A stretch of 64,000 nt of DNA from Streptomyces sp. NBC_00569 (GTDB taxonomy: Bacteria > Actinomycetota > Actinomycetes > Streptomycetales > Streptomycetaceae): positions 3,224,001 to 3,288,000 of the forward strand of contig NZ_CP107783.1 in NCBI RefSeq assembly GCF_036345255.1. Reading direction: 5' to 3'. Shown one piece after another: positions 53,481-63,787 of this stretch (the stretch's first letter is position 1; every line of letters starts with the position of its first letter). A model generated the notes under the pieces. That model did no database searches and was not told the DNA's origin. It saw only the letters and a list, made by a program, of their open reading frames with translations. A program made the translations under genes and the position numbers.

Positions 53481-54266
53481 GTGACCACCACCGCAGACAG
53501 CGCCACCATCACTGCCCAGGACCGTTCCCAGGGCCGACTCGAGCCGGTGCATGCCATGAATGACGCATCCATGAGCGCGGAGGGGCCGAAGCCCGCGCGC
53601 TCCCTGCCGGGCCGACCTCCCGGCATCCGGGCGGACAGCTCGGGGCTCACGGACAGGCAGCGGCGCGTCATCGAGGTGATCAGGGACTCCGTGCAGCGGC
53701 GTGGTTACCCGCCGTCGATGCGGGAGATCGGCCAGGCGGTGGGCCTGTCGAGCACGTCGTCGGTCGCGCACCAGCTGATGGCCCTCGAGCGCAAGGGTTT
53801 CCTGCGCCGGGACCCGCACCGCCCCCGCGCCTACGAGGTCCGTGGCTCCGACCAGCCGAGCGCGCAGCCCACGGACACCGCGGGCAAGCCGGCCGCGTCG
53901 TACGTCCCGCTCGTCGGCCGCATCGCCGCCGGTGGCCCGATCCTCGCGGAAGAGTCCGTCGAGGACGTGTTCCCTCTCCCCCGGCAGCTGGTCGGTGACG
54001 GCGAGCTGTTCGTCCTGAAGGTCGTCGGTGACTCGATGATCGAGGCCGCGATCTGTGACGGCGACTGGGTCACGGTCCGCCGCCAGCCGGTCGCGGAGAA
54101 CGGCGACATCGTCGCCGCGATGCTCGAGGGCGAGGCCACCGTCAAGCGTTTCAAGCGCGAGGACGGCCATGTGTGGCTGCTGCCGCACAACTCCGCGTAC
54201 CAGCCGATCCCCGGTGACGAGGCGACGATCCTCGGCAAGGTGGTGGCCGTTCTGCGGCGGGTGTGA
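53481..54266 (+). CDS. lexA: SOS repressor LexA
   Basis: A 261-residue repressor. A 50-residue N-terminal extension precedes the winged HTH (about 56-120, [21 protein letters not shown]). The self-cleavage site is Ala150-Gly151 in [10 protein letters not shown], and the catalytic pair is Ser185 ([10 protein letters not shown]) and Lys222 ([10 protein letters not shown]). RecA filaments trigger cleavage after DNA damage. GTG 53481 follows GAGAGGGG; in-frame ATGs at codons 26 and 31 could be the real start and would remove the extension. It is divergent from nrdRJ and convergent with dinG. Confidence 0.94.
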
Positions 54267-54412: not shown

Positions 54413-56395
54413 CTACGCGGTCTCTTCGGCTTCGGCGGTCGCCTTCGCATCGATGGCGGCCAGTGAGCGCCGCACCTGGTTCTGGTCCGTCGTGTACCAG
54501 AAGTCCGGCATCGAGGCCCGCAGATAGCTGCCGTACCGGGCCGTCGCCAGGCGCGGGTCCAGGACCGCCACGACGCCGCGGTCCCCCGTCGCCCGTACGA
54601 GACGGCCCGCGCCCTGGGCCATCAGCAGGGCAGCGTGTGTCGCCGCCACGGCCATGAAGCCATTACCGCCGGCGTCCTCGACGGCCTTCTGCCGGGCGCT
54701 CATCAGCGGGTCGTCGGGCCGCGGGAACGGGATCTTGTCCATGACGACGAGCTGGCAGCTGGCGCCCGGAACGTCCACGCCCTGCCACAGGGAGAGCGTG
54801 CCGAACAGACACGTCTTCGGGTCGGCCGCGAACCCCTTGATGAGCTCGCCGAGCGTCTCCTCGCCCTGGAGCAGGATCGGGTACTCGGGGAGTCGGGTCC
54901 GCAGCTCCTCGGCCGCGGCCTGGGCGGCGCGCATGGACGAGAAGAGTCCCAGCGTCCGGCCGCCGGCGGCCTGCATCAGCTCGGACAGCTCGTCCATCAT
55001 GTCGCTGCGGGTGCCCTCACGCGCGGGGCGTGCCAGGTGCTTGGCGACGTAGAGAATGCCCTGCTTGCGGTACTCGAACGGCGATCCGACATCGACGCCC
55101 TTCCACTGCGGCAGGCCCTCGCCCTCCTGGCCCTCGGGGGCCAGGCCCAGAGAGGCACCCACCCCGTTGAAATCGCCGCCCAGCTTGAGCGTTGCCGAGG
55201 TCAGCACGACGGACCGCTCCGCGAAGAGCTTCTCCCGCAGCAGGCCGGACACCGACATGGGGGCCACTCTGACGGACGCGCCGAAGCGGTCGTGGCGCTC
55301 GTACCAGACGACGTCGTACTCGGAGCCGTTCGTGATGCGCTCGGCCACGTCGTGGATGCTCTCCACGGAGGCCAGGGCCTGCTTGCGTACCGCGTCCTCG
55401 TCCTGGACGGACTTGTCGCGCGTGGTGCCCAGGGCCGAGATGACGGTCCGGGAGGCGTCCCGCAGCGCCATCAGCGCGTAGCCGAGGTCCTCCGGGACCT
55501 CCTCCAGACGGCCGGGCAGGGCCAGCTCCATGAGCCGCTCGAAGCCCTCGGCCGCGGTCTGGAGCTGATCGGCCGCCTTCTCGTTGACGAGCTTGGCGGA
55601 ACGGCGCACCGCGCGGTTCACCTGCCCCGGAGTGAGCTCGCCGGTCGCCACACCCGTGACCCGGGAGACGAGCTCGTGCGCCTCGTCCACGATCAGTACC
55701 TCGTGGGACGGCAGGACAGGTGCTCCTTCGATGGCGTCGATCGCCAGGAGCGCGTGATTCGTGACGATCACATCGGCGAGCTTGGCCCGCTCGCGGGCCG
55801 CCTCGGCGAAGCACTCCTGTCCGTACGCGCACTTGGTGGCGCCCAGACATTCTCTGGAGGAGACCGACACCTGGGACCAGGCCCGGTCGGAGACTCCGGG
55901 GGTCAGGTCGTCGCGGTCGCCGGTCTCCGTCTCGTCGGCCCAGTCCCGCATCCGCAGCAGGTCCTGGCCGAGCTTGCTGGTCGGAGCGGCCGCTTCGAAC
56001 TGGTCGAAGAGCCCCTCCTCCTCGTCCTGCGGCGCTCCTTCATGGAGGCGGTGCAGGCACAGATAGTTCGACCGGCCCTTGAGCATGGCGAACTGGGGGC
56101 GCCGGCGCAGCAGGGGGTGCAGCGCGTCGACCGTGCGCGGCAGATCCCGCTCGACGAGCTGGCGCTGGAGGGCCAGCGTGGCCGTCGCGACCACGACCCG
56201 CTCGCCGTGCGCCAGGGCAGGGACCAGGTAACCGAGGGACTTACCGGTACCCGTGCCTGCCTGTGCGAGCAGGTGGGAACCGCCGTCGATCGCCTCGGCG
56301 ACGGTCTCGGCCATGGTCACCTGGCCAGGTCGTTCCGTACCGCCCACGGCGGCGACGGCGGCGTGCAGGAGCTCGGGGAGGGAGGGCTTCGTCAT
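54413..56395 (-). CDS. DinG-family ATP-dependent DNA helicase
   Basis: A 660-residue superfamily 2 XPD-like helicase. Motif I is AQAGTGTGKSLGY, motif II VDEAHEL, and the C-terminal motifs include GTLSLWQGVDVPG and QGAGRLVRATGDRG. The four Cys of an iron-sulfur cluster can be placed at NYLCLHRL, RECLGATKC and QECF. Family members resolve DNA structures during repair. It lies 40 bases downstream of the siderophore synthetase gene on the same strand, so it may share that transcript; its neighbour on the other side is lexA. Confidence 0.9.
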   Translation of the reverse strand: MTKPSLPELLHAAVAAVGGTERPGQVTMAETVAEAIDGGSHLLAQAGTGTGKSLGYLVPALAHGERVVVATATLALQRQLVERDLPRTVDALHPLLRRRPQFAMLKGRSNYLCLHRLHEGAPQDEEEGLFDQFEAAAPTSKLGQDLLRMRDWADETETGDRDDLTPGVSDRAWSQVSVSSRECLGATKCAYGQECFAEAARERAKLADVIVTNHALLAIDAIEGAPVLPSHEVLIVDEAHELVSRVTGVATGELTPGQVNRAVRRSAKLVNEKAADQLQTAAEGFERLMELALPGRLEEVPEDLGYALMALRDASRTVISALGTTRDKSVQDEDAVRKQALASVESIHDVAERITNGSEYDVVWYERHDRFGASVRVAPMSVSGLLREKLFAERSVVLTSATLKLGGDFNGVGASLGLAPEGQEGEGLPQWKGVDVGSPFEYRKQGILYVAKHLARPAREGTRSDMMDELSELMQAAGGRTLGLFSSMRAAQAAAEELRTRLPEYPILLQGEETLGELIKGFAADPKTCLFGTLSLWQGVDVPGASCQLVVMDKIPFPRPDDPLMSARQKAVEDAGGNGFMAVAATHAALLMAQGAGRLVRATGDRGVVAVLDPRLATARYGSYLRASMPDFWYTTDQNQVRRSLAAIDAKATAEAEETA

Positions 56396-56435: not shown

Positions 56436-58502
56436 TCAAGGCTGGTGCAGTGGATTGGGCACCGTGCCGTGCACGGCCGCGTGGGGGCGCTGCGACCGGT
56501 CGCGGTAACCGTCCAGATGCAGTCGGTTGCGATTGAGGCAGAGCCGCTCGATACGGGGAGTGAGGAGGTCGAACATCTCGTACCGCTCCTTGAGCTCGGG
56601 GAAGCGCGCCTGATGCCGCACGATCTCAGCGCGCACCAGGGACCAGAACTTCTCTTCCGTGACACCCAGCTGCTGCTCGCACAGGGGCGCCAGATACCGG
56701 AAGACGCCGACGAAGAGCCCCGAGTGGATGAACTGGGTCAGGAAGGCGGGCGGCTCGGTGAGCAGGGTCTCGCGGACGTCCTGCGGCATGCGGTCGTGTT
56801 CGGGCAGCGGCTCGGCGCTCACGTTCACGTCGTCGACGAAGTCCTTCACCGCGAGCCGCACCGGCACGTCGTGGTCGTCGAAGACGACGATGGCGTTCTC
56901 CCCGTGCGGGGAGAACACGGTGCCGTAGCGGTAGAGGAAGTGCAGAAGCGGGGGGAGCAGGGCCGCGAAGAGCCGGCGCAGCCACACCTCGGGGGTCAGC
57001 CCGGATCGGGCGACGAGTTCCGCGGTGAACGCCCGGCCGTGCGGGTCCACGTGCAGCAGAGAGGCCAGGGTGCGGGCCCGTTCGCCGGGGGCGAGATACC
57101 GGGAGACCGGTTCGCGCCAGATGGCACCCAGCAACTCCTTGTACTGATAAGGAACTTCTTCGAGGCCGTCGTACGCGGGGTGCTCGACGGCGACCGAAGC
57201 CACCTCTCCCAGGAGGATGACCCCGCAATCGTCCTTCAAGAAGGGGTCTGTTTCGCGGAGGGAGTGCATCCACGCGGTGACCGACGGTGCCGCGAGCGTG
57301 CGCTCTGTGGGCAGGCCCCGCCACACAAGGGTGTTGAGTACGGACAGCGGGAGCTTCACTGTGTGACGGTCGGGGCGCGAGATGTTGAGGAACGTACGAA
57401 TGGACTGCTGGGGCAGGCGCACGTCGCCGTCGGTGGGGAGCGGCACGATGGCGTCCGTCGCGACGGAGCCGGCGAAGAGCGGCAGCACGATGTTGTTCCA
57501 CTGCCACGGGTGTACCGGTAGGTACAGGTAGGCCTGCGGGTCCAGGCCGCGCTCCCGGAGGGCCTCGGCGAAGGAGTCCCGCGCCGCCGGGGAGAGTTCA
57601 CGGTCGTACAGCCGATCGGATGTCGCCAGGTCCGCGACGCCTCGGTAGGCGGCGATCCTCGTGTGGACGGCGATCCACGGGAGCGTCCCGGGGATACGGG
57701 CCTCGGGGGCCCAGCGGGCGGTGTCGGAGGCCGAGAACCCCATGCGGCCCTTGTTGAGGACGAGCCAGGGGTGGCCGGTCTGGTGGCCTTCCAGTTCGGC
57801 GTATCCGAGCTCGGCGAGCTGGGCCGCGGTGAGCGCGGTGTGGTCGAGACGGGCGTCGGCGGCGAGGGTGACGGTGAGCTCGCGGATGAGATGCCCGAGC
57901 GTGGCGCCGTCGAGGTCGAGGACGTGCTTGGCGCGGAGGAGGAAGGCGAGGGGGTCGGTGAAGCGTTCAGGCGGGTTCGTTGCGGGGAGCGAGGGCCTGG
58001 GCTCGGCGGCGTCCGCGTCCTTGTCAGTCTGCGCGGGGCGACCGACGGTCCCGCCCGGGCGGTCGGCGGTCTTGTCCGGGCGGTCGACGCTCTCGGCGGG
58101 GCGACCGACGGTCTCGTCCGGCCGGCCGGCGCTGTCGTCTGCGCGGCCGGCGATCCACTGGATGCTGCCGGGATCCACGAGCCAGCTGCCGTAGGCGCCC
58201 CGGCGGGCCTTGAACCGGAACGCGCCGCCGGGCGGCATGTGGGAGCCCTCGACGGGGAGGGTGTAGAGGTCTGACCGTCCTGGCCGCGGACCAGGCCCAT
58301 GAGCCGGAGCCGAACCCGGACCATGATCCAGCTCTGGCTCCGGTTCACGTTTCGGTTCGATGATCTCCTCGTACGCGAACTCGCCGATCATCTTCGCCAG
58401 CAGCCGGGCTGCGGCGCACTCCCAGTTCTCGGACGTCAGCTCCGCTGGGTCGTACAGAGCGGAGGACGCTGCGGAAGTCTGGGGCTCGGACGGATTCGGC
58501 AC
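56436..58502 (-). CDS. NIS siderophore synthetase (IucA/IucC family, DesD-like)
   Basis: A 688-residue ATP-dependent synthetase that forms amide or ester bonds to a carboxylate. Catalytic motifs: GHPWLVLNKGR (residues 243-253), LPVHPWQWNN, QQSIRTFLNISR and PHGENAIVVFDD. The C-terminus RDRSQRPHAAVHG resembles DesD. About 90 extra residues are inserted in the N-terminal part: a Glu/Pro-rich piece at 48-77 and a run of six heptad-like repeats at 118-160. GTG 58502 has GAGGAG five bases upstream. It is the last gene of the siderophore set and probably performs the final condensation. Confidence 0.9.
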   Translation of the reverse strand: MPNPSEPQTSAASSALYDPAELTSENWECAAARLLAKMIGEFAYEEIIEPKREPEPELDHGPGSAPAHGPGPRPGRSDLYTLPVEGSHMPPGGAFRFKARRGAYGSWLVDPGSIQWIAGRADDSAGRPDETVGRPAESVDRPDKTADRPGGTVGRPAQTDKDADAAEPRPSLPATNPPERFTDPLAFLLRAKHVLDLDGATLGHLIRELTVTLAADARLDHTALTAAQLAELGYAELEGHQTGHPWLVLNKGRMGFSASDTARWAPEARIPGTLPWIAVHTRIAAYRGVADLATSDRLYDRELSPAARDSFAEALRERGLDPQAYLYLPVHPWQWNNIVLPLFAGSVATDAIVPLPTDGDVRLPQQSIRTFLNISRPDRHTVKLPLSVLNTLVWRGLPTERTLAAPSVTAWMHSLRETDPFLKDDCGVILLGEVASVAVEHPAYDGLEEVPYQYKELLGAIWREPVSRYLAPGERARTLASLLHVDPHGRAFTAELVARSGLTPEVWLRRLFAALLPPLLHFLYRYGTVFSPHGENAIVVFDDHDVPVRLAVKDFVDDVNVSAEPLPEHDRMPQDVRETLLTEPPAFLTQFIHSGLFVGVFRYLAPLCEQQLGVTEEKFWSLVRAEIVRHQARFPELKERYEMFDLLTPRIERLCLNRNRLHLDGYRDRSQRPHAAVHGTVPNPLHQP
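58023..58151 (-). repeat. Six 21-bp coding repeats in the NIS synthetase gene
   Basis: The repeats encode units of the form GRPxxTV: GRADDSA, GRPDETV, GRPAESV, DRPDKTA, DRPGGTV and GRPAQTD. The unit length of seven codons is constant while the bases vary, so the repeat is kept at protein level as well as DNA level. Confidence 0.78.
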
Positions 58503-58555
58503 GGGGACTCCTCGGGAACCGGATCGGGGTGAGCGGTGTACTAAGAGTGACGGGC

Positions 58556-59455
58556 TCACAGCAGAGCGCGCAGGGCCCGGTCTCGGATCATCAGTGCGGC
58601 CCGTTTGTCGGGGAGCTCCACCTCGGCGGAGAAGCGGAAGCCGGCACTCAAAAAGGCGGATACAGAGGGGGTGTTGCGGAGGTCCGGCTCTGCGACGACA
58701 CGGGCGCAGGGCGGACGGTGGTCGAGTACGAGGTCGGCGACGGCCTTGAGCAGGCCTGTGCCGAGTCCCCGTCCGCGGTTGGCGACACCACCGATAAGGA
58801 GGTGAACACCGGTGTCGTGCGGGCGGGCAGGATAGTGGCGGGCCAGTGGGTCGAGGTCGGCGCGGTAGATCTCCCAGTAGCTCATCGGGGTGCCGTCCAG
58901 TACGCCGAGGCAAGGGACGCTGCGCCCGTCACCGTCCAGTTGGGGGCGGAGATGGTTCTCCGTGACGCTCTCCGGGCCTTCGAGTTCCCAGAACGCGGCT
59001 ACGGCTGGATCATTCATCCAGCGACTGATCAGCGCCAGGTCGCGTTCGATACGGACGGGAACCAGCTGAAAGACGCCGGAACGTGTGGTGACCGGTCCCC
59101 ACGCTCCGACGTTGTCGAGCAGGTCGTCGTCCGCCAGGGCCGTCGAGGTGCCGCCCGGTGCGTGTGGTCGCGTTCCGTCGACTGGGTGCCCGTACCCGGG
59201 AAGGACTGCGCCGGTCCCCTGGCCCACGCTGCCGCTGGCCTGCCCGCCGGTTTCACCCTGTCCGGCGATCAGGTCGATGAGTTCGTCGGGCAGACGCAGG
59301 TCCAGGGTGTCGGCGACGTCCGTGCCGACGCCGGGCTCGGAGCCTGTGAGCTCGTCGGCGCCGGGGCCCGTGTCGGCGACCTCGTCGGTGACGGCATCGG
59401 CAGGGGCGATAGCGGGCGTGGCTCCGGCGTCGGTGCACGCGTCGGTCGATGACAC
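58556..59455 (-). CDS. Siderophore-type GNAT N-acyltransferase with long N-terminal extension
   Basis: A 299-residue protein. The C-terminal 180 residues form an IucB/RhbD-type acyltransferase (DLALISRWMNDPAVAAFWEL near residue 137, YWEIYRADLDPLARHYPARPHDTGVHLLIG, GRGLGTGLLKAVADLVLDH for CoA binding). Relatives acylate the amine of a hydroxamate precursor. The first 115 residues are acidic, Gly/Thr-rich and probably disordered, except for a predicted amphipathic stretch LDLRLPDELIDLI. GTG 59455 has GAGAGGA eight bases upstream. It sits between the two synthetase genes, 38 and 53 bases away. Confidence 0.87.
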   Translation of the reverse strand: MSSTDACTDAGATPAIAPADAVTDEVADTGPGADELTGSEPGVGTDVADTLDLRLPDELIDLIAGQGETGGQASGSVGQGTGAVLPGYGHPVDGTRPHAPGGTSTALADDDLLDNVGAWGPVTTRSGVFQLVPVRIERDLALISRWMNDPAVAAFWELEGPESVTENHLRPQLDGDGRSVPCLGVLDGTPMSYWEIYRADLDPLARHYPARPHDTGVHLLIGGVANRGRGLGTGLLKAVADLVLDHRPPCARVVAEPDLRNTPSVSAFLSAGFRFSAEVELPDKRAALMIRDRALRALL

Positions 59456-59493
59456 GGCGGCGTTCCTCTCAGGGGATGGGGTGGGCGTGTACC

Positions 59494-61854
59494 TCAGGAA
59501 TGAAGGGGGTTGGCGATGGTGACGTAGACGGATTGGGTGTCGACGGGACCGACGAGTTCGTCGAGTCCGTGCAGGCGGGTGAGGAGGTTGGCCTTGCAGC
59601 GCAGGGCCGGGGAGTCGAGGAGGTATCCGGGCAGTGGGGTGCGGAGTTTGTCCGGTCCCGACGCGACATCGGAGAGGAACCCGCGGAACGCAGCCAGCAA
59701 CAGCCCTTCGTCCGCCAGCTGTTGGGAGCCGAAGGCGCCGATGAGACCGAAGACGTTGTTGATCCCGAGGTAGTAGGCGAACCTCTCGTCGGTGACGTCG
59801 TCGGAGACGAAGGTGTCGCTGTGGCTGCCGATGCCGGGCAGCCGGCCGTCCAGCTCGGCGCGGCGGGACTCGCGGAAGTAGTAGCCCTGGTTGTCGCGGT
59901 AGCGGCCGCCGACGGGCCAGCCTTCGGGATCGAGCAGCAGCAGCGTGTTCTGCTGATGGGCTTCCAGGGCCACGCCGGCGGTGCTGTCGAGCCAGAGCAC
60001 CGGGCGTACGACGTGTTCGAGGTAGCGCAGGAACCACTCGGCGGCGACGGCGCCTCGGGGGCGACCGGTACGGCCGGCGAGGCGGGTGATCGTCTCGGCG
60101 AGGCGGGAGCGCATGAGCTGGCGGTCCGGCTGTCCGTGGGGCACGGCCGGAGGTCTGGGGGACACGAGGCCGGCGATGCAGGCTGCGTCGTCTCCGGGTG
60201 CAAACGGGTTGTTCCGGATCATCACGTCCAGGCCGGCCACCGGTTCGCCGTCCGGGCCGTTGACGGCGAGCCAGGCCGGGTCGCGGACGATGTCGAATCC
60301 GGGGTGGGCCGCCTGCCACTGCTCGGAGAGCCCGGTGCGCAGCAGTCGGTGGACCTCGACGCCGCGGTGGAGTTCCTTACGGAGGTTCTCCCGACGGGAG
60401 TTGGTGATGCGCAGGCCGAGCGAGAGCTTCAGCATGGCCGACGCATCGGGCCGGTAGAGCGTACGGACGGAGGAGGTGGGGTACCAGGAGGCGCCGTGCG
60501 GGCCGAGGTCACGCAGAAGGCCGGCGTCGAGGAGGGCCGCGGTCTGGGGGCGGTGCCTGAGTTCGCGCGCCTGCCAGGGGTGCAGGGGCAGCGCGGTGTG
60601 TCCGTCGGGCAGGGGCAGTTCCGTCCCGGCGAGTTGGAGGGCGAGCTGGTCTGCCGGCAGTGGGCGGCCCCGATGGGTCCAGGCCGAGTCCATCGCGAGC
60701 ACCGAGCGGTTCACCGCCATCCAGTGCAGGGGGAAGGATCCCTGCAACTCGGGTGAATAGAGCCGGGATTCGGCCTCGGACAGGCCCTCGCGACTCTTCG
60801 GAGTCGGGTGCAGGGGGTGGCCGAGCAGGAGGGACTGTTCGGCGCCCAGGAAGAGGTCGGTCGTGTCGCGGGGGTTCCTGCGACGGTGGGCGATGAAGTC
60901 GGCAGTGCGGCGAATCGAGTCGGCGACGCGCCCCACCAGGTCGGCTCCGTCGCCTGAGGGGGTGGGGTGCGAGGAGTGAGGGGTGGCGGGGGGAGACGGC
61001 TCGGGGCGGGTGCCCTCGGGGTGGAGGGCCTTGGGGCGTGAGGCTTCGGGGTGGGGGGCCTGCGCCATCGGGTAGGCGGTCTCACCGCTGGGGGCGGGCT
61101 GCGCGACGGGGTCGCCGTGGGGACGCGGTGTCTCGGGTGCGGCGGCAGCGGCGACGGCCTCGGGGGTGTCCGCGACGGTCGGCGTGGGCGGCGCGAGGAC
61201 GCTCGGGGTCGGTGCCGAGGCACTCGGGGCCGGCATCCGGTCGGTGGGAACCGGCGTCCGGCCGGTCGGCGACTCCGGCCCGCCTGGGGCGTCGGATGCG
61301 GTGTTCGGCGTGCCCGCCGAGCCCGGAACGCCGCCCTCCTGCCGGGGGGCGTCACCGCCGCTTCCGCCGCCGGCCCTCACCCGGACGCCGCCGCCACCCC
61401 CGACCTCGGCCGCGCTTCCCGGGCCCGATGCCTCGCGGCTCAGGAGGGCGGCGACCGTGACGGCGTCGACGTGCGGGGCGTCCAGCGGGCCGTCCTGGAG
61501 ATGGGGCATGCCGAACCGGTGCCAGCCGGTCGCGGACCAGTAGTGGACAGGGATGAGGAGGGCGGTGCCACTTGCGGGCAGAGGAATGCGCAGAGTGCCG
61601 TGCGGGGGTTCGGCCAGATCGTTCTCCCGCACCCAGCAGCGGAGCAGGTTCTCGACGGCCGCGGCCTGGGCCGCGGTGCCGGGGTCGGGATGCTCCAGCA
61701 GGTCGGCGGTGGAGCCGTGCAGATGCTCGGCCTCCTGGCTGCCGTCCTTCTGCCGGGGGACCGTCCCGCGTTCCGGGGCGAGTTGGGGCTGCGTGTCGCA
61801 GGCTCCGCTCGCCTGGGGGCGGTGTCGGTCGTCGGGTGCGGGATTGGCGTTCAA
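59494..61854 (-). CDS. NIS siderophore synthetase (IucA/IucC family) with 160-residue insertion
   Basis: A 786-residue synthetase, compared with about 580-620 usual for the family. Residues 60-142 and 303-786 align with the family plan: GHPLHPTPK (345-353), LPLHPWQARE, SSVRTLYRPD, LKLSLGLRITNSRRENLRKE, YLEHVVRPVLWLD and EAHQQN. Between them lies a Pro/Ala/Gly/Thr-rich, charge-patterned insertion (about 143-302) with no fold apparent. TTG 61854 is chosen because AAGGAAG lies six bases upstream. It should perform the first condensation of a citrate-type acid with an amine. Confidence 0.88.
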   Translation of the reverse strand: MNANPAPDDRHRPQASGACDTQPQLAPERGTVPRQKDGSQEAEHLHGSTADLLEHPDPGTAAQAAAVENLLRCWVRENDLAEPPHGTLRIPLPASGTALLIPVHYWSATGWHRFGMPHLQDGPLDAPHVDAVTVAALLSREASGPGSAAEVGGGGGVRVRAGGGSGGDAPRQEGGVPGSAGTPNTASDAPGGPESPTGRTPVPTDRMPAPSASAPTPSVLAPPTPTVADTPEAVAAAAAPETPRPHGDPVAQPAPSGETAYPMAQAPHPEASRPKALHPEGTRPEPSPPATPHSSHPTPSGDGADLVGRVADSIRRTADFIAHRRRNPRDTTDLFLGAEQSLLLGHPLHPTPKSREGLSEAESRLYSPELQGSFPLHWMAVNRSVLAMDSAWTHRGRPLPADQLALQLAGTELPLPDGHTALPLHPWQARELRHRPQTAALLDAGLLRDLGPHGASWYPTSSVRTLYRPDASAMLKLSLGLRITNSRRENLRKELHRGVEVHRLLRTGLSEQWQAAHPGFDIVRDPAWLAVNGPDGEPVAGLDVMIRNNPFAPGDDAACIAGLVSPRPPAVPHGQPDRQLMRSRLAETITRLAGRTGRPRGAVAAEWFLRYLEHVVRPVLWLDSTAGVALEAHQQNTLLLLDPEGWPVGGRYRDNQGYYFRESRRAELDGRLPGIGSHSDTFVSDDVTDERFAYYLGINNVFGLIGAFGSQQLADEGLLLAAFRGFLSDVASGPDKLRTPLPGYLLDSPALRCKANLLTRLHGLDELVGPVDTQSVYVTIANPLHS
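60949..61428 (-). other. Low-complexity insertion inside the NIS synthetase gene
   Basis: The segment encodes about 160 residues dominated by Pro, Ala, Gly, Ser and Thr with repeated HPE and RPE patterns. Base composition is extreme even for this genome, with long G-runs on the plus strand. It interrupts the N-terminal domain, not a linker. Confidence 0.7.
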
Positions 61855-61997
61855 CGGGGCTTCCTTGTGGGGTAGTTGACTCCGTGGTGCGGTGGTCCGG
61901 ACTGTCCGGTGTTCCGCTGCTGTCCGTGGTGGTCCGTGTTGTGGTGGCCCAGGCCCGGTGGGTATGGGGCTTCAGGACGGGGCCGGTCCCGGCTGGG

Positions 61998-63404
61998 CTA
62001 TCCGCAATGGGTGCGGGCCGCCTCGGCCAGGGCGTCGGCGAGACGCTCGACGACGGCGGCAGCCTGTTCGTCGGTGATCGTGAGGGGCGGCAGAAGGCGT
62101 ACGACGCTGGAGTGGCGGCCGCCGAGCTCGACGATGAGTCCACGCCGGAGGCATTCGCGCTGCACGGACGCGGCGAGTCCGGGGGCGGGAGGATGTGGGC
62201 TCAGGTCGGGTGCGGCCGGTCGGTCCGGGTCCTGGGCGGCGCCCACGTCGACCAGTTCGACGCCGATCATCAGGCCGCGGCCCCGCACGTCCCCGATGCA
62301 GGGGTGTTCGGCGGCGAGGCCCTGGAGCTGGCCCACCATGCGGGCGCCCAGGAGGGCGGCGCGTTCGGCGAGACGGTTCTCCCGGACATGGGCGAGGGTC
62401 GCGGCGCCGGCGGCCATGGCGAGCTGGTTCCCGCGGAACGTGCCGGCGTGGGCCCCGGGTTGCCACACGTCGAGGTCGTCCCGGTAGACGACGACGGCCA
62501 GGGGAAGGCTGCCGCCGATCGCCTTGGACAGGACCATGACGTCGGGCACCACGCCGCTGTGTTCGACGGCCCAGAAGGCGCCGGTCCTGCCGACGCCGGT
62601 CTGGACCTCGTCGGCGATCAGGGGGATGGAGCGTGCCGCGGTCAGTTCCCGCATCCGCCGCATCCAGGCGTCGGGCGCGGGAATCACCCCGCCTTCCCCC
62701 TGGACGGGTTCGAGGATCATGCCGGCGGGGTGCGGCACCCCCGACTTGGGGTCGTCGAGGAGGGATTCGGTCCAGCGCGCGGAGAGTTCGGCGCCGCGCT
62801 CACCGCCGACGCCGAAGGGACAGCGGTAGTCCTGCGGAAAGGGGAGCCGCGCGACCCTGACGTCCTGCGCTCCGCCGGACGCTTCGAGCGCCCCCGCGGT
62901 CATCCCGTGATAGGCGCCGGTGAAGGCGAGCATTCCGCTGCGGCCGGTGGCCGTGCGGACGAGTTTCAGGGCGGCCTCCACCGCGTCGGTGCCGGCCGGT
63001 CCGCAGAACTGGATCCGTGCCCGCTCGGCGAGTCCGGCGGGCAGCGTTCGGAAGAGTTCCGTCGTGAAGGCGTCCTTCACGGGGGTGGCCAGATCGAGCA
63101 CATGCAGGGGGGCGCCGGAGTCGAGTACGCGTCTGATCGCTTCGAGCACGACAGGGTGATTGTGGCCGAGGGCCAGCGTGCCCGCGCCGGAGAGGCAGTC
63201 GAGGTACCGGCGTCCGTCGGCGCCCTCGATCGTCAGGCCGCGGGCCCGCACGGGCACGATCGGCAGGGCGCGCGCATAGGTGCGGGCCGCCGACTCCCGC
63301 GCGGACTGCCGCCGCAGGATTCCCTCTTGGGCAACGCCCTCACGGGCGGCGCCCCCCTCATACCCCGCGGACATCGCCGCGGACGCAGGCTCGGTGACGG
63401 CCAC
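61998..63404 (-). CDS. Class III aminotransferase, diaminobutyrate-2-oxoglutarate type
   Basis: A 468-residue PLP enzyme that should make L-2,4-diaminobutyrate from aspartate semialdehyde. The cofactor residues are Asp265 in IADEVQTGVGRTG and Lys294 in VLSKAIGGSLP; the CGPAGTDAVEAALKL and FTGAYHGMT segments complete the fold. It resembles RhbA of the rhizobactin pathway. GTG 63404 has GGGGAGGA nine bases upstream. It is the first gene of the leftward siderophore set; the next gene begins 143 bases later. No diaminobutyrate decarboxylase gene follows. Confidence 0.9.
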   Translation of the reverse strand: MAVTEPASAAMSAGYEGGAAREGVAQEGILRRQSARESAARTYARALPIVPVRARGLTIEGADGRRYLDCLSGAGTLALGHNHPVVLEAIRRVLDSGAPLHVLDLATPVKDAFTTELFRTLPAGLAERARIQFCGPAGTDAVEAALKLVRTATGRSGMLAFTGAYHGMTAGALEASGGAQDVRVARLPFPQDYRCPFGVGGERGAELSARWTESLLDDPKSGVPHPAGMILEPVQGEGGVIPAPDAWMRRMRELTAARSIPLIADEVQTGVGRTGAFWAVEHSGVVPDVMVLSKAIGGSLPLAVVVYRDDLDVWQPGAHAGTFRGNQLAMAAGAATLAHVRENRLAERAALLGARMVGQLQGLAAEHPCIGDVRGRGLMIGVELVDVGAAQDPDRPAAPDLSPHPPAPGLAASVQRECLRRGLIVELGGRHSSVVRLLPPLTITDEQAAAVVERLADALAEAARTHCG

Positions 63405-63787
63405 GACTGTTGGTCCTCCCCTTGGATCCCGCTGGATCCGGTCGATTTCTCGGTACGGGGGATCAGTTGACGTACGGGTGTCCGGGGCGGAACCCCAAGG
63501 ACCGAGCGACGACGGCGAATCCCCCGTACGTACCAACGACGGTGACTGCGCGGGATCACGGGTCGGGGGAAAATCCTTGTCGCTCGGAAGATCCATGCCG
63601 TGACGGAACCGTTGCCGTTCCGTGGGTAGTCCCCCACAGCGCGCGCATAGGGTGGGTTGCCGTTCGACGGAGGGCGGAGGGTTCGGTCGCGGGGCGAGGC
63701 ACATCAAGTGCCGAGCGTGGCGCGGCGGGTTCACGACCGACGGCGGCCGGCACTGCACAGTTCTCGAAGCCCAGGGGGATTCACGAC
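63405..63787. other. Divergent promoter region of the siderophore set
   Basis: The 383 bases separate the aminotransferase and lipoprotein genes. No iron box was found by eye. A distant inverted repeat (GTACGGGGGAT 63453-63463 and ATCCCCCGTAC 63519-63529) and the compact dyad at 63603-63623 are the only structured elements seen. No coding frame is supported. Confidence 0.5.
63603..63623. promoter_or_regulatory. Candidate operator dyad
   Basis: ACGGAAC (63603-63609) and GTTCCGT (63617-63623) are perfect inverted arms with a 7-base spacer, in the middle of a divergent promoter region. Confidence 0.45.

Follow-up and report, generated by a model that had tools for sequence, protein, structure and literature searches.

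The non-ribosomal peptide synthetase-independent siderophore (NIS) systems close to the locus described here include those for rhizobactin 1021 and schizokinen. We examined a 64,000-nucleotide stretch of the genome of Streptomyces sp. NBC_00569 (the window), whose csbABCD genes have in common with these two pathways an aminotransferase, a type-A NIS synthetase, an acyltransferase and a type-C NIS synthetase. The S. meliloti pSymA locus, which we take to be rhbABCDEF of rhizobactin 1021 with the gene names and chemistry of that system, has the order aminotransferase (AT), decarboxylase (dec), first NIS synthetase (NIS1), GNAT acyltransferase, monooxygenase (mono), second NIS synthetase (NIS2). 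The desferrioxamine genes desABCD share the decarboxylase, monooxygenase, acyltransferase and type-C synthetase families with csb and the unlinked gene pair described below but, unlike csb, include neither an aminotransferase nor a type-A synthetase. In Arthrobacter sp. Rue61a, a cluster with RhbB/E/D/F-like genes provides an actinobacterial schizokinen-type prediction in which decarboxylase, monooxygenase, acyltransferase and synthetase are linked; the passage describing it names no aminotransferase (PMC3534580).

The csb genes were published as a cryptic cluster of Streptomyces sp. YIM 121038 by Schneider et al. 2022 (PMC9600172), who describe csbABCD-dinG-lexA-nrdR with a missing iucD-like gene and a diaminobutyrate (DABA) transaminase. 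Gene content and order in the window agree with this, from csbA through csbD to dinG, lexA and nrdR. CsbC was characterised in that work as an N-succinyltransferase that uses acetyl-coenzyme A (CoA) less efficiently than succinyl-CoA, a preference that distinguishes csb from rhizobactin 1021 and schizokinen, as do the unlinked decarboxylase and monooxygenase genes and the lack of a detected iron box reported here. The csb account of that paper does not seek the missing enzymes elsewhere, and the present work adds to it the unlinked pair, the relatives with an intact cluster and the loci without csbD; nothing on the location of the missing enzymes was found in the openly readable literature, most subscription journals being outside this coverage. 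An earlier reading of the window from its sequence only had held that this cluster type has no assigned product in Streptomyces, which stands for the openly readable literature, although the cluster type itself had already been published as csb. In S. coelicolor, SCO5799-5801 has been described as a siderophore-type locus (PMC3224560, PMC7324645, PMC6414726) and is listed in PMC3610822; with three locus tags it may, judging from the numbering, be a csbD-minus form.

The sequence-only reading had also recognised four collinear genes and likened them to the rhizobactin 1021 and schizokinen pathways, and both points were borne out by open reading frames, Pfam, NCBIfam and solved structures (Table 1). 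CsbA matched Aminotran_3 (1.2e-86), scored 484.8 bits against the NCBIfam diaminobutyrate transaminase model TIGR00709 (cut-off 401.6) and was 55.7% identical to the aminotransferase of the S. meliloti rhb locus. CsbB matched IucA_IucC (4.2e-68) and FhuF, was 42.7% identical to its rhb-locus counterpart and had the aerobactin synthase IucA as its closest solved structure. CsbC matched Acetyltransf_8 (1.3e-47), with MbtK as the closest structure, and CsbD matched IucA_IucC and FhuF (1.3e-70), with DesD or AlcC closest depending on the stretch used and IucC next; the starts used for these last two Pfam matches differed slightly from the frames in Table 1.

The whole genome (one contig, 10.32 Mb) was then searched for the decarboxylase and monooxygenase, with matches taken at E <= 0.001. 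Five Pyridoxal_deC and five Lys_Orn_oxgnase matches were found, none of them in the window, as had been noted previously, and none in the 18.4 kb to its right, which rejects a location of the missing enzymes just beyond that edge. Two Lys_Orn_oxgnase matches were full length: DesB, with 425.7 bits, and the product of a gene at 7.237 Mb, with 390.3 bits. The latter belongs to an adjacent decarboxylase-monooxygenase pair at C1:7235307-7238170, 3.95 Mb from csb, flanked by an M1 aminopeptidase gene and a gene resembling 5'-nucleotidase. No NIS synthetase was present in the 36 kb around the pair, and the genome encodes three IucA_IucC synthetases, CsbB, CsbD and DesD (at 6.296 Mb). The best solved relative of the unlinked monooxygenase was a putrescine N-hydroxylase; for the decarboxylase it was a DABA decarboxylase entry (4.5e-65), with a desferrioxamine decarboxylase close behind (2.1e-64), and the substrate is not settled by sequence alone. 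Because the two enzymes are unlinked, gene-neighbourhood mining cannot complete csb.

What was observed is the gene families, their relatives, and where and in what order the genes lie; from this we infer every substrate, and the product, in the following scheme. The csb genes and the unlinked pair probably constitute one six-enzyme, schizokinen/rhizobactin-like hydroxamate NIS pathway that is split over two loci. CsbA would form L-2,4-diaminobutyrate, which the unlinked decarboxylase would convert to 1,3-diaminopropane and the unlinked N-monooxygenase would N-hydroxylate. CsbC would acylate the resulting hydroxylamine, probably with succinyl-CoA, after which CsbB would couple a first N-acyl-N-hydroxydiaminopropane to citrate and CsbD would attach a second. 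The product would probably resemble schizokinen, as a citrate bis-hydroxamate that carries succinyl where schizokinen has acetyl.

The relatives of csb were read by eye in a class sample of 393 genomes. A csb-type csbB was present in 42 of 44 Streptomyces, and a monooxygenase match lay next to csbB in none of these 42 loci versus 30 of 31 csbB relatives outside the csb clade, the sole case without one nearby at the threshold used being G320. In Embleya scabrispora, E. hyalina and Yinghuangia seranimata (3/3 loci) the order was AT-dec-NIS1-GNAT-mono-NIS2, identical to that on S. meliloti pSymA, followed by two small genes (seen in L149 and L151) and dinG-lexA. A Sporichthyaceae metagenome-assembled genome (MAG; L103, on the same contig as L141) had the same order minus AT, with dinG after NIS2, and among the best 80 of 588 relatives of its monooxygenase, these 80 being annotated, 21 had AT, dec, NIS1 and NIS2 together. 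The most likely ancestor of the csb locus is a six-gene cluster under iron-box control that still occupies the same site in Embleya and Yinghuangia.

A different cut was seen in four Kitasatospora-type genomes (L147 and L155, named Kitasatospora; L152 and L153, named Streptomyces), all of which carried NIS1-GNAT-mono-NIS2-dinG at the site and AT adjoining dec at a second locus. Streptomyces has the complementary cut, with AT kept at csb and dec and mono elsewhere. Related genera thereby offer a case of a single pathway that appears to have been divided in different places, in a manner traceable by gene order and phylogeny. Each of the seven Streptomycetaceae genomes of the Embleya, Yinghuangia and Kitasatospora types had one decarboxylase match (E <= 1e-40) and one close monooxygenase match; Yinghuangia had an additional monooxygenase match of 38% identity, and the other six had no further match at E <= 1e-60. 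The unlinked pair itself also occurs in Actinacidiphila and Streptantibioticus (L211, L220), two further members of the family.

Within the genus, 150 Streptomyces genomes were classified by hand for csb, monooxygenase and decarboxylase. With csbB scored at E <= 1e-80 and the unlinked monooxygenase at no less than 59% identity (partial rows G041 and G070 included, truncated G012 excluded, E-value used where there was no row), csbB was present in 140/150 genomes and the monooxygenase in 135/150. Both are near-universal in this sample, and most of the genus carries a siderophore-type locus. Among the 10 csbB-negative genomes, the highly fragmented G028 and G050 had csbD matches. As relatedness was not corrected for, the following p-values indicate direction only: csb and monooxygenase were both present in 132 genomes, csb alone in 10, monooxygenase alone in 3 and neither in 5 (Fisher p 2.4e-4); with csb scored by the csbB search alone the same classes held 131, 9, 4 and 6 (p 5.9e-5), and for the 115 of 150 assemblies with <=200 contigs, 106, 5, 0 and 4 (p 1.8e-5). 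Scored against the decarboxylase, the classes were 132/10/0/8, or 128/14/0/8 without four genomes that matched only a 49% second-cluster enzyme.

The csbD gene was scored from 7 candidates per genome, matches of at least 70% identity (a few of them partial) being counted, and was found in 82/150 genomes, plus a remnant in G012. No such match was found in 60 of the 140 csbB carriers, and a csbD search was rejected as a readout of csb presence, as the csbB search found csb in csbD-less genomes. When 23 of these 60 were opened (partly picked for better assemblies), intact csbD was found in none; csbC was followed directly by dinG with no csbD between in 20/20 opened loci, plus G067 (L111), G051 (L120) had neither csbC nor csbD, and the locus of G012 (L052, L117) was rearranged. 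The csbA gene was not found in loci L056, L057, L121, L138 and L139. Strains with CsbB and no csbD match would therefore have to end the pathway at a mono-amide or take the second step with a different synthetase, for instance DesD. Naming these strains, together with the second locus and the relatives with an intact cluster, brings the cryptic cluster within reach of a few gene deletions and enzyme assays.

Trees were built from 34 and 48 monooxygenases and from 43 and 42 decarboxylases. Streptomyces DesA and DesB formed separate clades (100/100 each), and neither unlinked enzyme fell on the DesA or DesB branch. The unlinked decarboxylase clustered with the complete-cluster enzymes L216, L045 and L196 (99/97), and the unlinked monooxygenase with that of L216 (97/89), the complete cluster of Streptomyces sp. 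TRM64462, both of whose enzymes lie on the branch of the pair. A larger decarboxylase group that includes the csb-site enzymes split from DesA plus the S. meliloti enzyme with support of 100/98 to 100/99, and the csb-site decarboxylases of Embleya, Yinghuangia and the MAG were strongly placed outside the DesA clade. The S. meliloti monooxygenase and L101 lay on the Des side on long branches. Clusters of dec-mono-NIS2 were found in L108, L172, L189, L195, L204 and L210, mostly Pseudonocardiaceae, with no type-A synthetase matches. As the nearest outside group of the pair is Pseudonocardiaceae dec-mono-NIS2 clusters, it looks like a replacement acquired from that branch rather than csb-site genes that have moved.

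Control of the two loci was assessed by searching for DmdR-type iron boxes with <=4 mismatches. None was found in 50 Streptomyces csb stretches (two of which hold no csbA-csbB or a remnant only), in 24 unlinked-pair loci or in the four Kitasatospora-type csb loci, although iron may act on csb by another kind of control. The des locus, used as a control, gave one perfect and one near-perfect box, and of eight further Streptomyces stretches with NIS clusters, six also contained boxes. All three intact loci of Embleya and Yinghuangia had an upstream box with 3-4 mismatches, against 0 expected by shuffling (two tested).

A putative element lies upstream of csbA (Table 1), and the spacing of its core equals that of the BldN site consensus, CGTAAC-N16-CGTTGA (PMC2375139). 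By chance, the core with one mismatch allowed would be expected 0.32 times in the window and the longer element 0 times. The element was found upstream of csbA/csbB in 25/27 csbD-plus stretches (one of the misses lacks csbA/csbB) versus 4/21 csbD-minus loci; it therefore follows csbD, and a genus-wide conserved csbA promoter was rejected. In the second mycelium of S. coelicolor, log2 values reported for 24, 48 and 72 h are 0.4, 1.3 and 1.8 for SCO5799, 0.8, 1.8 and 1.3 for SCO5801, and 1.1, -3.7 and -3.2 for SCO2782; desA and the coelichelin genes fall while SCO5799 and SCO5801 rise at 48-72 h (PMC3610822). SCO5799 does not appear in the main text of the 2025 DmdR1 regulon paper (PMC12161575). 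The BldN-like spacing and this expression pattern are suggestive only as a hint to regulation. A bolder scenario, to which we give little credence, is that Streptomyces dismantled an iron-regulated citrate-hydroxamate cluster for a different use late in development: the iron box would have been lost, csbD-plus species, the present one among them, would have come under a promoter for a BldN-like extracytoplasmic function (ECF) sigma factor, building-block enzymes would come from an unlinked locus lacking an iron box, and other species, having dropped csbD, would make mono-amide or hybrid chelators with CsbB alone or with DesD. Its odds are lowered because the element is missing from 17/21 csbD-minus loci, possibly the form of S. 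coelicolor.

Several observations weigh against a single pathway split over csb and the unlinked pair. No csb product was detected by liquid chromatography-mass spectrometry in the published work (PMC9600172). Ten csb-positive genomes lacked the pair: G043, G114 and G121 have a second NIS cluster that includes dec and mono genes, both genes of the pair are truncated in G012 (L118), G008, G050, G081 and G099 are fragmented, and the G010 and G079 assemblies are 93% and 78% complete. The monooxygenase occurred without csb in three genomes, all fragmented (320-1010 contigs). A regulatory motif common to csb and the pair was sought and rejected, a short TCGTTGG in part of the genomes being all that was found. 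The deepest split of the larger monooxygenase tree was weak (64/33), the S. meliloti decarboxylase sat with DesA (on a long branch), and several complete-cluster decarboxylases scored higher to DesA than to the unlinked decarboxylase. The NCBIfam RhbB model likewise gave DesA 440.9 bits and the unlinked decarboxylase 289.5, both under the cut-off of 900. The AT-dec pair of the Kitasatospora-type genomes adjoins a further NIS-like gene (32% identity to csbB) that it could serve. Finally, the closest relatives of the pair outside Streptomycetaceae are Pseudonocardiaceae dec-mono-NIS2 clusters, and because these have no close AT nearby, the substrate of the pair need not be DABA or diaminopropane.

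DesA and DesB, which are present in the genome of the window and in 5/5 further Streptomyces des loci fetched, might supply a hydroxylated diamine based on cadaverine or putrescine, in which case the csb product would be aerobactin- or arthrobactin-like or mixed and the pair would serve something else. The higher RhbB score of DesA fits this, and the Des enzymes are a plausible fallback for csb-positive genomes without the pair; nevertheless we regard such a supply as improbable. The csb-site decarboxylases fall outside the DesA clade, 6/7 genomes with a csb-site monooxygenase have no other monooxygenase match at E <= 1e-60, CsbA suggests a route through DABA, a compound for which lysine-based synthesis has no use, and iron boxes occur at des and not at csb. 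The earlier proposal that csb borrows enzymes was right in that a pair exists elsewhere in the genome, and the desferrioxamine locus is the weaker version of it: DesA and DesB are there, but DesA lies outside the branch of the pair. It is less probable still that L-2,4-diaminobutyrate itself is condensed with citrate, as the sequence-only reading had also suggested, giving a carboxylate or amide chelator comparable to achromobactin or staphyloferrin B and needing no hydroxylation. A csb locus without decarboxylase or monooxygenase agrees with this, and the published CsbC, which also accepts free amines such as putrescine and ornithine for succinylation, would have no absolute need of a hydroxylamine (PMC9600172). 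It is disfavoured because relatives hold both enzymes in the same locus and Streptomyces has a second pair elsewhere, which co-occurs with csb.

The csb locus could also be undergoing decay or reduction across much of Streptomyces, with loss of the iron box, of csbD and its accompanying upstream element and, in some cases, of csbA itself, the remainder being kept for a task such as amine succinylation. The csbB carriers without a csbD match, the retention of the element in no more than 4/21 csbD-minus loci, the five loci in which csbA was not found and the lack of iron boxes are all in keeping with such decay, which we consider unlikely. Against it, csbB persists in nearly all of the genomes sampled, the element is kept in almost all csbD-plus loci, the window included, and attempts to disrupt csbC in YIM 121038 failed (PMC9600172). 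The split six-enzyme pathway remains the reading that we prefer.

Table 1. Positions of csb, its neighbours and the unlinked pair (window coordinates, or contig coordinates where marked C1)
Feature	Position	Strand	Description
csbA	61998-63404	minus	GTG start, 468 aa; class-III aminotransferase, diaminobutyrate--2-oxoglutarate family
csbB	59494-61854	minus	TTG start, 786 aa; type-A NIS synthetase, IucA/RhbC-like, proline-rich N-terminal insertion
csbC	58556-59455	minus	GTG start, 299 aa; GNAT N-acyltransferase, IucB/MbtK-like, long N-terminal extension
csbD	56436-58502	minus	GTG start, 688 aa; type-C NIS synthetase, IucC/DesD/AlcC-like
Element upstream of csbA	63520..63560	minus	Putative; CGTGAT-N16-CGTTGG core within CCCGTGATCC...CGTCGTTGGTACGTACGGGGGA
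dinG helicase gene	54413..56395	minus	Syntenic marker directly downstream of csbD
lexA	53481..54266	plus	Syntenic marker
Unlinked decarboxylase	C1:7235307 to ~7236737		Adjoins monooxygenase
Unlinked N-monooxygenase	~C1:7236734-7238170		Directly after decarboxylase; stop/start codons overlap

Downstream of csb lie dinG, lexA, nrdR and nrdJ, and upstream, in divergent orientation, two lipoprotein-like genes with hflX beyond; these names were read from the sequence, and dinG-lexA-nrdR match Table 1 of PMC9600172. The insertion in csbB is long and of low complexity (window 60900-61460), and the N-termini of CsbC and CsbD carry similar extensions.

In G012 (L052, L117, L118), the csbD remnant lies beside dinG, csbB-csbC is at 8.4 Mb, and the decarboxylase and monooxygenase genes are truncated. 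Second copies of the monooxygenase of the pair, with 64-66% identity, were observed in L041, L046 and L047, two beside an FhuF-type reductase gene and one beside a decarboxylase gene, and an iron-box-like site with 3-4 mismatches lay near every one of them. All nine genomes with monooxygenase rows of 62-66% identity also had csbB. The NIS-like gene beside AT-dec was seen in L221-L224, along with, in L221, a gene resembling a second kind of pyridoxal phosphate-dependent decarboxylase; these genes perhaps represent a different siderophore cluster. In Streptomyces caatingaensis and S. morookaense (L197, L217), AT, decarboxylase and monooxygenase genes occur together with no NIS matches in the stretch, and by their predicted families form a building-block module alone. 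The NBC_00569 genome also encodes an 873-aa fusion of a penicillin acylase (Penicil_amidase) and a siderophore-type GNAT (Acetyltransf_8) at G000:C1:5360366-5362987 (L029:5367-7988).

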